Source: Pseudomonas asiatica | GTDB taxonomy: Bacteria > Pseudomonadota > Gammaproteobacteria > Pseudomonadales > Pseudomonadaceae | Assembly (NCBI RefSeq): GCF_009932335.1 | Contig: NZ_BLJF01000001.1 | Coordinates: 2,604,001-2,668,000, forward strand | DNA length: 64,000 nt | Direction of reading: 5' to 3' | Shown here: positions 60,511-63,598 of the stretch, piece after piece | How the letters are laid out: each line of letters opens with the position of its first letter | Numbering within the stretch: position 1 is the first letter of the stretch | Notes under the pieces: generated by a model | The model's input: only the letters and a program-made list of their open reading frames with translations | Databases searched by the model: none | Told to the model about the DNA's origin: nothing | Position numbers and translations under genes: made by a program

Positions 60511-60549
60511 AAAAAGCCCAGGCCCTCCCCGCACGGAAAGGCCCAGGCA
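60511..60549 (-). terminator. Terminator of the catBCA operon
   Basis: On the minus strand GCCTGGGCC and GGCCTGGGC pair with two G-U wobbles, followed by TTTTTG. It lies 26 bases after the catA frame. Confidence 0.65.
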
Positions 60550-60574: not shown

Positions 60575-61074
60575 TCAACTGTTTTGCAACGCGCGCGGGC
60601 GGTGGCTGCGTGCCTCGGCGTCTGGCGCCTTGGCCGCCTGTAGATGGAAGTCGAACGCCAGCTCGGCAAAGCGCTCACCCTCTACGCCGCGAGCACGCGC
60701 TGCCGCAGCATCCTCGACAAAGCGCAGCTCGCCGACCAGCCCGTCACGGGTGGCATAGGCAAAGTCATCCCACAAGTACTTGTCGCCGGCCAGGTTTATC
60801 TGCGTGGTCAGGTGCCGGTGCCCGGGCGCAGAGATGAAGAAGTGCACATGCGCCGGGCGCTGGCCGTGACGGCCGAGCAGGTCCAGGCATTCCTGGGTTG
60901 GTCCCTGCGGATCGCAACCGTACCCCGACGGCACGATGGAACCAGGCGTGCAGTGTCCTGCAGCACACGCAGGATGATCTGCTTGAAGCGTGGGTTGCCT
61001 TCGGCATGGCCCAGGCCGGCCACTTCCTTGAAGAACGCCTGAACATCGGCAGTATGGGAAATTTTCACGGTCAT
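60575..61074 (-). pseudogene. catA: catA (catechol 1,2-dioxygenase), broken by an internal deletion
   Basis: The first 44 codons (MTVKISHTADVQAFFKEVAG ... LQDTARL) are normal, then the reading jumps to the last third of the enzyme in another frame. The C-terminal part is clear in that frame: SGYGCDPQGPTQECLDLL, RPAHVHFFISAPGHRH, NLAGDKYLWDDFAYATRDG. The junction is near 60940. Compared with the usual CatA of about 311 residues, roughly 430-440 bases are missing. The deleted part contains the helical dimer domain and the first iron-ligand tyrosine; the second Tyr (SGYG) and the two His (AHVHF) remain but out of frame. The predicted product is an 88-residue nonsense-tailed peptide. It is the third gene of the catBCA operon. 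Confidence 0.9.
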
Positions 61075-61117
61075 CGTGCTTGCCTCATCTTGTTCTTGTC
61101 AGGTAGACAGGTGCGAC

Positions 61118-61408
61118 TCAGCGGTCGTCGCTGTGAATCGACGAGGGGTGCCGGCACAGGCCGTCGACTTCGATGTCCATGTACGGGAACAGCGGCAGCT
61201 GCATCAGGGTGTCGTGCAGCGCCTCGACGCTGGGTACATCGAACACGCTGTAGTTGGCGTAGTGCCCGGCAATGCGCCACAGGTGGCGCCAGGTGCCTTC
61301 GCGCTGCAGACGCTGGGCCAGTTCCTTTTCGTCGGCCTTGAGCCGGGCGGCCTTGGCCGGGTCCATGTCGACCGGCAGTTTCACGGTCATCTTCACGTGG
61401 AACAGCAT
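61118..61408 (-). CDS. catC: Muconolactone isomerase
   Basis: A 96-residue decameric isomerase that turns muconolactone into 3-oxoadipate enol-lactone. The sequence MLFHVKMTVKLPVDMDPAKA, WRIAGHYANYSVFDVPSVEALHDTLMQLPLFPYMDIEV is characteristic, and length is normal. Lies 48 bases after catB and 43 before catA. Confidence 0.95.
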   Translation of the reverse strand: MLFHVKMTVKLPVDMDPAKAARLKADEKELAQRLQREGTWRHLWRIAGHYANYSVFDVPSVEALHDTLMQLPLFPYMDIEVDGLCRHPSSIHSDDR

Positions 61409-61440
61409 GCTGGTTTCTCCTTTCTCTGATTTGGCGCGAA

Positions 61441-61468
61441 CACTGTGGGAGCGGGTTTACCCGCGAAC
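61441..61468. repeat. Single REP element at the catB stop codon
   Basis: CACTGTGGGAGCGGGTTTAC followed by CCGCG. On the minus strand its GGGTAAACCC contains the TAA that ends catB. No partner copy is present. Confidence 0.7.
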
Positions 61469-62584
61469 ACGGGCGAAGCGCGCCAGGCGCTGTTCGTCCA
61501 GGGTCAGGCCCAGGCCTGGGGTGCGTGGAATGTGCAGCTGGAAGTCGCGGTATTGCGGCGGCTCGTTGACGATTTCTTCGGTCAGCAGCAGCGGCCCGAA
61601 CAGCTCGGTGCCCCAGGTGAGCTGGCGCAGGGTCAGGAAGGCATGAGCCGAAGCCAGGGTGCCGATCGAGCCTTCGAGCATGGTCCCGCCATACAAGGCG
61701 ATGCCGGCAGCCTCGGCGATTTGCGCGGTACGCAGTACGGCACGCGGGCCGCCGTTCTTGGCTATTTTCAGGGCGAAGATGCTGGCCGCGCCGTCGGCAG
61801 CCAGGCTGAAGGCGTCCTCGACGCTTTCGATCGACTCGTCGGCCATGATCGGTGCCGGGCTGCGCTGGTTCAGGCGCACCTGGCCGCTGCGGTTGATACG
61901 CGAAATCGGTTGCTCGATCAGGTCGATGCCGTTTTCGCCAAGCACCTGGCAGGCACGGATGGCCTGGGATTCGTCCCAGTACTGGTTGACGTCGACCCGC
62001 ACGCTGGCGCTGTCGCCCAGCTCGCGCTTGATCGCCACCACGTGCTTGAGGTCCTGGGCCAACGGGTTGGCGCCGATCTTCAGCTTGAACACCCGATGCC
62101 GACGAATCTCCAGCATGTGCTGGGCTTCGGCGATGTCGCGGGCGGTATCGCCGCTGGCCAAGGTCCAGGCCACTTCCAGGCTGTCGCGCACGCGGCCACC
62201 CAGCAGTTCGCTGACCGGCAGGCCCAGGCGTTTGCCCTGGGCATCGAGCAAGGCGCTTTCGATACCCGACTTGGCGAAGGTATTGCCCTTGGCCAGCTTG
62301 TCCAGCTTGAGCATGGCGGCGTTGATGTTGTCAGCCGGCAAGCCAACCAGCGCCGGCGCCAGGTGCGCATCGATGTTGGCCTTGATGCCCTCCGGGCTTT
62401 CGTAGCCATAGGCCAGGCCGCCGATGGTGGTGGCCTCGCCGATGCCTTCCACGCCATCACTGCAGCGAACACGCAATACCACAAGGGTCTGCTGCTGCAT
62501 GGTGTGCATCGCCAGCTTGTGCGGGCGAATGGTCGGCAGGTCGACGATAATTGCCTCGATACGTTCAATCAGCACGCTTGTCAT
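61457..62584 (-). CDS. catB: Muconate cycloisomerase
   Basis: A 375-residue enolase-superfamily enzyme converting cis,cis-muconate to muconolactone. Capping domain at the N-terminus; Lys general acid/base in FKLKIGANP; metal ligands in RVDVNQYWDE, IEQPI and MADESI; second Lys in FALKIAKNGG. No break is visible. First gene of catBCA; CatR at 62720 is divergent. The last few residues (ARVRG) are encoded by a REP element. Confidence 0.95.
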   Translation of the reverse strand: MTSVLIERIEAIIVDLPTIRPHKLAMHTMQQQTLVVLRVRCSDGVEGIGEATTIGGLAYGYESPEGIKANIDAHLAPALVGLPADNINAAMLKLDKLAKGNTFAKSGIESALLDAQGKRLGLPVSELLGGRVRDSLEVAWTLASGDTARDIAEAQHMLEIRRHRVFKLKIGANPLAQDLKHVVAIKRELGDSASVRVDVNQYWDESQAIRACQVLGENGIDLIEQPISRINRSGQVRLNQRSPAPIMADESIESVEDAFSLAADGAASIFALKIAKNGGPRAVLRTAQIAEAAGIALYGGTMLEGSIGTLASAHAFLTLRQLTWGTELFGPLLLTEEIVNEPPQYRDFQLHIPRTPGLGLTLDEQRLARFARVRG

Positions 62585-62719
62585 TGTTGCCAGGTCCCGT
62601 TGTTTCGGGCTGCCAGCCGCAGGCCCGAGTGGTGCATTTACTTGCTTGTTCAAGGATTGCGCGAGACCCTGATAGCCGTCCAATATCGAATGAATCTCCC
62701 ACCATACCCTGGAGGTCTG
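62585..62719. promoter_or_regulatory. catB/catR divergent control region
   Basis: The 135-base gap should hold the CatR repression and activation sites. In P. putida CatR activates catBC with cis,cis-muconate, and the sites overlap the catR promoter. The AT-rich stretch GATAGCCGTCCAATATCGAA (62670-62689) is the likely core; I did not resolve individual sites. Confidence 0.55.
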
Positions 62720-63598
62720 ATGGAGCTGCGCCACTTGCGTTACTTCAAGGTCCTGGCCGAAACCCTGAACTTCACTCGCGCCGCCGAGCTGCTGCACATT
62801 GCCCAGCCGCCGCTGAGCCGGCAGATCAGCCAACTCGAGGACCAGCTCGGTACCTTGCTGGTAGTGCGCGAGCGCCCGCTGCGGCTGACGGAGGCGGGTC
62901 GCTTCTTCTACGAACAGAGCTGTACCGTGCTGCAGCAGCTGCAGAACATCAGCGACAACACCCGTCGCATCGGCCAGGGCCAGCGCCAGTGGCTGGGGAT
63001 CGGCTTCGCCCCGTCGACCCTGTACAAGGTGCTGCCGGAGCTGATCCGCGAGCTGCGCCAGGACAGCGAGCTGGAACTGGGCCTCAACGAGATGACCACG
63101 CTGCAGCAGGTGGAGGCGCTGAAAAGCGGGCGCATCGACATCGCCTTCGGGCGCATTCGCATTGATGACCCGGCCATTCACCAGCAAGTGCTGTGCGAGG
63201 ACCCGCTGGTGGCGGTATTGCCCAAGGGTCACCCGCTGGCGAGCAGCCCGCTTACACTTGCCCAGCTGGCTGGCGAGGCGTTCATCCTCTACCCGGCCAA
63301 CCCGCGGCCCAGCTATGCCGACCATGTGCTGGCACTGTTCGCCCACCACGGCATGAGCATCCGCGTCAGCCAATGGGCCAACGAACTGCAGACCGCCATC
63401 GGTCTGGTGGCCGTCGGCGTAGGCGTGACCCTGGTGCCGGCGTCGGTGCAACAGCAGCACCGCACCGATATCGAATATGTAAGCCTGCACGACAACGGCG
63501 CCGTCAGCCCGATCATCCTCAGCCGACGCAAGGGCGATGTGAGCCCGATCGTGCAGCGCTGCCTGACATTGATTGCACAACAGGAAAAAACAGCATGA
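62720..63598 (+). CDS. catR: CatR, LysR-type activator of the catechol branch
   Basis: A 292-residue LysR regulator: [60 protein letters not shown] and an effector domain for cis,cis-muconate. Position divergent from catB and the length fit CatR. GGAGG precedes the ATG. Its stop overlaps the dsdA ATG by 4 bases. With catA broken here, its inducer must come from another catechol dioxygenase. Confidence 0.93.

Follow-up and report, generated by a model that had tools for sequence, protein, structure and literature searches.

An internal deletion in catA of the catBCA operon in a Pseudomonas asiatica genome with an intact catA2 in its ben cluster

Catechol 1,2-dioxygenase Genes in Related Pseudomonads

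The closest described systems are those of Pseudomonas putida. Strains KT2440 and mt-2 are reported to possess a catBCA operon as well as catA2 in the ben cluster (Jimenez et al. 2014, as cited in PMC8601166, PMC9705993 and PMC7054097), and both catA copies of KT2440 are reported to be functional (PMC7054097). The effect of losing catA is described for P. putida H (PMC8601166). The deletion strain grew on benzoate as before (0.35 vs. 0.33 per h), its culture was clear and its catechol 1,2-dioxygenase activity still amounted to 30%. In bioreactors, catechol and muconate were transiently secreted by this strain and the catechol was re-consumed. A meta route with a catechol 2,3-dioxygenase is available to P. 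putida H as well (PMC8601166).

The locus described here is situated in a window of 64,000 nucleotides from Pseudomonas asiatica, a soil bacterium of the P. putida group (contig NZ_BLJF01000001.1, positions 2,604,001 to 2,668,000). It resembles that of KT2440 and mt-2 in the gene order catB-catC-catA, in its divergent LysR regulator and in the presence of a second catechol 1,2-dioxygenase gene, here placed in ben. It differs from KT2440 in that its own catA1 is broken. With the P. putida H deletion strain (PMC8601166) it shares the state of having CatA2 as the only catechol 1,2-dioxygenase left. However, that strain is engineered and has a catechol 2,3-dioxygenase, whereas the genome of the window has none scoring over the cut-off, and the comparison is imperfect because of the meta route and the transient secretion of catechol and muconate. 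A natural parallel was found in P. inefficax JV551A3 (L050), which has also lost catA after catC while keeping catBC and the ben-associated catA2, although in this species the start codon is gone and about the last 50 bp of the gene are left, as opposed to 500 bp in the window. Among the papers listed by the literature searches, none was noticed whose title or opening lines of the abstract describe a catA deletion of natural origin in this group, which is no proof that the allele is unpublished, and neither catA nor catA2 occurs as a whole word in the main text of PMC13098254.

Organization of the cat Locus

The catR-catBCA locus extends over positions 60575-63598 of the window, with catB, catC and catA following one another on the minus strand and the gene of a LysR regulator diverging from catB on the plus strand. 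The preliminary description had regarded catB, catC and catR as apparently functional, and all three are open, with the first two scoring over the cut-offs of their families. These are catB (61457..62584, minus strand), encoding a muconate cycloisomerase of 375 aa (TIGR02534, 527.8 bits, cut-off 334.95), and catC (61118..61408, minus strand), encoding a muconolactone delta-isomerase (TIGR03221, 154.4 bits, cut-off 130.6). The catR-like gene (62720..63598, plus strand) encodes a protein of 292 aa with LysR domains in Pfam. As none of the matches listed for it (25 of 53 NCBIfam models) reached its cut-off, the designation CatR is based on the position and kinship of the gene. The damaged catA (61074-60575, minus strand, 500 bp) lies 3' of catC as the last gene of catBCA, in a position homologous to that of 72 full copies in relatives. 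It is followed by a terminator-like hairpin (60516..60548, minus strand), from a consensus scan that returned 3 sites vs. 2.1 (sd 1.6) in shuffled sequence and is thus not above chance.

A second deletion in the operon, of 96 bp, is located at 61457-61479. In relatives such as P. pudica (L044), GCTTCGCCCG occurs twice at a distance of 96 bp, once at the end of catB and once in a repeat between catB and catC which we take to be REP-like, and the window carries a single copy (61470-61479). The stop codon of catB is lost in the window, where CatB runs on for two more residues (375 vs. 373 aa).

Size, Junction and Remnants of the catA Deletion

The preliminary description had proposed an internal deletion with frameshift in catA, with 430–440 bases missing and 44 N-terminal codons joined to the remainder near 60940. 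This was confirmed by a breakpoint scan against four relatives with an intact gene, namely P. pudica (L044), Pseudomonas sp. SID14000 (L039), Pseudomonas sp. Kh13 (L049) and P. putida NBRC 14671 (L041). The gene measures 500 bp in the window vs. 936 bp in these relatives, and the missing piece came to 436 bp in all four comparisons (1 mod 3, that is, 145 codons and one base). The best break was placed after gene base 132–134 (window 60941-60943). The junction (60940..60943, minus strand), the letters of which were checked, shifts the frame and has 0–2 bp of microhomology, and codons 45–190 are gone in whole or in part.

Two remnants are left. The N-terminal remnant (60941..61074, minus strand) was delimited by alignment to the relatives and comprises the start codon and 44 codons, matching TIGR02439 positions 2–39. 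The C-terminal remnant (60575..60940, minus strand) is out of frame with the start codon and matches positions 189–285 of the same model as well as positions 93–181 of the 182 of PF00775. The ATG at 61074 opens a frame of 88 codons which is CatA for the first 44 and unrelated thereafter, and an open frame of 119 codons with a GTG start (60934-60575) represents the C-terminal part of CatA in another frame. Against TIGR02439 (285 positions, cut-off 392 bits) the two parts score 34.5 and 170.2 bits, respectively, in separate frames, and the family cut-off is not reached by the product of the locus. A chance match is not an issue, because the remnant is identical to L044, L039, L049 and L041 at 473, 471, 466 and 439 of 500 positions, respectively.

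We take Tyr163, Tyr197, His221 and His223 to be the iron ligands of CatA, with Tyr163 as the first. Tyr163 (in the numbering of the P. pudica CatA, identical to that of PDB 2azq) falls inside the deleted piece, and the other three residues are in the C-terminal fragment, out of frame with the start codon, so that the four do not occur on one polypeptide. The N-terminal dimer domain, Dioxygenase_N, has no Pfam match in either remnant frame, while the intact CatA2 of the same genome does match it; the loss of both this domain and the first tyrosine ligand had been noted in the preliminary description. As read from the DNA, a complete catechol 1,2-dioxygenase cannot be obtained from the catA locus, because the deletion takes out codons 45–190 and shifts the frame.

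Two modes of origin were considered and rejected. Recombination between catA1 and catA2 does not fit, as both flanks of the junction match the catA1 of relatives (the 473 of 500 positions shared with P. pudica), whereas the match between the remnant and the genome's own catA2 is 89% along 229 bp and 74% along another, short stretch. A deletion between long direct repeats is likewise at odds with ends that share 0–2 bp.

CatA2, the ben Cluster and Other Sources of Catechol

A search of the genome with PF00775 gave matches in four places: the catA remnant, two neighboring sites at C1:4158733-4159897, which are probably pcaG and pcaH, and an intact enzyme in an open frame of 306 codons. The last is catA2, with an ORF of 304 aa at L005:10695-9781 (C1:2049780-2050694), and both dioxygenase domains are present in its product by Pfam. 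The gene lies between benK and benE in a cluster with the order benR-(orf)-benABCDK-catA2-benE-porin. None of its nine named genes contains an internal stop, and an intact catA2 adjoins benABCDK and benE. The preliminary description had foreseen that the strain would either rely on a further catechol 1,2-dioxygenase, with a ben-associated catA2 as the example, or accumulate catechol, and the search for a second gene recovered such a catA2, with benR, benA, benB, benC, benD and benK all open.

Other catechol-related enzymes were sought in the genome using family models. For catechol 2,3-dioxygenase the best score was 36.2 bits vs. a cut-off of 320.2, which was reached in none of the controls either. 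No anthranilate dioxygenase was found over the cut-off, the best match being benA (477.2 vs. 671.9), nor any salicylate hydroxylase (best 29.8 vs. 446.35); both of these searches can work, because the two models score over their cut-offs in relatives. The phenol hydroxylase model (PF02332) matched neither the genome nor any of the controls, which makes this search uninformative. Since the searches for other sources gave nothing over the cut-off, benzoate is the only catechol source detected in the genome, and its degradation cluster includes a catechol 1,2-dioxygenase.

A shortage of catechol sources was also considered as a cause that would set catA losers apart from catA keepers, and was rejected. 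Anthranilate dioxygenase and salicylate hydroxylase are both absent over the cut-off in three of six keepers (L044, L039, L049), so that their absence does not discriminate. Among the other keepers, L041 has both enzymes, and L048 and L038 have salicylate hydroxylase. P. inefficax has neither over the cut-off, like the genome of the window.

Between benR and benA there is an orphan frame of 304 codons (L005:16027-16941, C1:2056026-2056940) with no Pfam match and what we would presume to be an RHS-like look. The two genes are separated by 1083 bp in this genome, by 888 bp in L146, by 1260 bp in L147, where the contents are different, and by 165 bp in both P. inefficax and P. pudica. The gap is thus a variable slot, differing in length and contents among relatives. 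Upstream of benA, the box TGCACAATCCGGATA (L005:16007-16021) fits what we presume to be the BenR/XylS motif, TGCA-N6-GGNTA, and is a putative BenR-like box. A second, upstream copy is present in P. inefficax and P. pudica and is degenerate in the genome of the window, at the point where the orphan frame ends. Given this degenerate copy, control of the sole intact catA2 may differ from that in P. inefficax and P. pudica.

catA in Related Genomes

CatB as query retrieved 220 related stretches from named genomes, and the analysis was based on the best 80. A full, open catA follows catBC in 72 of these, catA is cut by a contig end in two (L067, L116), and the remaining six have no catA match at E 1e-5, including two (L088, L113) whose stretch ends too early to tell. 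No catA is present in the 8-kb stretch of P. japonica (L070), P. fuscovaginae (L076) or Pseudomonas sp. KNUC1026 (L092), and the sixth locus is that of P. inefficax. In these three and in P. inefficax, one or more CatA proteins score over the cut-off elsewhere in the genome. In P. inefficax this CatA lies in a ben cluster, the nine proteins of which are 91–98% identical to those of the window genome. In the genome of L092, a catA-like gene (record 2253041-2253876) gives two overlapping matches in different frames (profile positions 3–77 and 75–285), which suggests a frameshift or a sequencing error.

A tree of catR, catB, catC and a neighboring gene places the window with P. pudica, which has an intact catA, and P. 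inefficax, in which it is deleted (100/99 support), and the branching order inside this trio is not resolved by the tree. As, moreover, the P. inefficax deletion covers that of the window, it may be either independent or an enlargement of it. A further case is the database protein P0004, in which about the first 48 residues of CatA are joined to the last 21. It retains residues 46–47, which are lost in the window, and is therefore a separate event. A protein search with the C-terminal part returned 159 proteins, and among the matches listed (120 of 159) many end at contig ends.

Authenticity, Age and Interpretation of the Deletion

Very probably, catA1, which stands last in catBCA, recently lost its function by deletion, and this was tolerated with an intact paralog, catA2, in the ben cluster. 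The preliminary description had named an assembly collapse as the alternative, in which the genome would in truth have an intact catA from which 436 bp were dropped. In keeping with this, among 398 genomes sampled from the genus, the junction (up to 3 mismatches allowed) turned up in one only, the window's own. However, the ends at the junction have no more than 2 bp in common, which leaves an assembly no repeat to collapse, and the assembly consists of three contigs and is rated 100% complete. Furthermore, of 13 proteins retrieved with the out-of-frame fusion (88 aa) as query, two, P0001 (99%) and P0002 (94%), are joined at the identical point. Compared with the window, P0001 has another residue 4 (Thr, as in P. 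pudica), and P0002 departs from it in the out-of-frame tail. Both come from short contigs (741 and 1166 bases) with no source name, and their clusters hold 9 and 2 member sequences, the 9 possibly including the window's own protein. As two other database proteins show the same fusion with different substitutions, an error of assembly or sequencing is highly improbable. A change was counted as lineage-specific where the window departs from a codon common to L044, L039 and L049. The catA remnant has nine synonymous and no replacement changes over 163 codons (43 + 120), catB has 12 synonymous and four other changes over 376 codons (one of the four being the shifted stop), and catC has three synonymous and no other changes over 97 codons. 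No pseudogene drift is visible in the remnant, which argues that the deletion is probably recent.

Such purity might also be expected if the remnants still acted, with a restart at an internal codon giving a C-terminal protein of some function. The 119-codon frame is indeed open from its GTG, and a database protein of 119 aa (P0014) is 98% identical to it, but purity is explained equally well by recency, and a fragment devoid of Tyr163 and of the entire N-terminal domain, with 170.2 of the 392 bits required by TIGR02439, makes this scarcely credible. A different question is whether loss of catA1 was favored rather than just tolerated, for instance through benzoate-only control or a smaller overflow of muconate, with independent deletions in relatives as its reflection. 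P0004, which is not derived from the window's allele, and the larger deletion at the same place in P. inefficax speak for this, but the loss is rare among the 80 loci (72 full copies, as against six without a match, two of these ending early), the deletion in P. inefficax may have arisen by enlargement of that in the window, and P0004 has no known genomic place. Selection for the loss is accordingly judged unlikely. The case looks like the ordinary decay of a redundant gene, with benzoate-inducible catA2 rendering muconate-inducible catA1 dispensable, and we infer that its loss was tolerated thanks to the intact catA2.

Going by what is known of the beta-ketoadipate pathway, CatA2 would be expressed together with the ben genes and open benzoate-derived catechol to cis,cis-muconate; muconate and CatR would then switch on catBC, and CatB and CatC would process the muconate further. 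Because catA is the last gene, its loss should be non-polar on catB and catC. The net change would be a regulatory one, with ring cleavage left to the benzoate-responsive BenR system alone.

Significance

The locus is a natural counterpart of the laboratory strains deleted for catA, in which CatA2 would be the genome's only catechol 1,2-dioxygenase. The presence of catBC thus does not guarantee, in the P. putida group, that catechol is cleaved from the same operon. The strain offers a simple test of whether CatA2 is a mere backup (a "safety valve") or is able to carry the pathway alone. What goes beyond ordinary decay is the recurrence in relatives and the predicted benzoate-only control of catechol cleavage. 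It is conceivable, though we hold it only tentatively and with more doubt than confidence, that the P. pudica/P. inefficax lineages repeatedly discard the muconate-inducible CatA1 and bring ring cleavage under benzoate-only control through CatA2. If this were true, catechol from any source other than benzoate would no longer induce its own cleavage.
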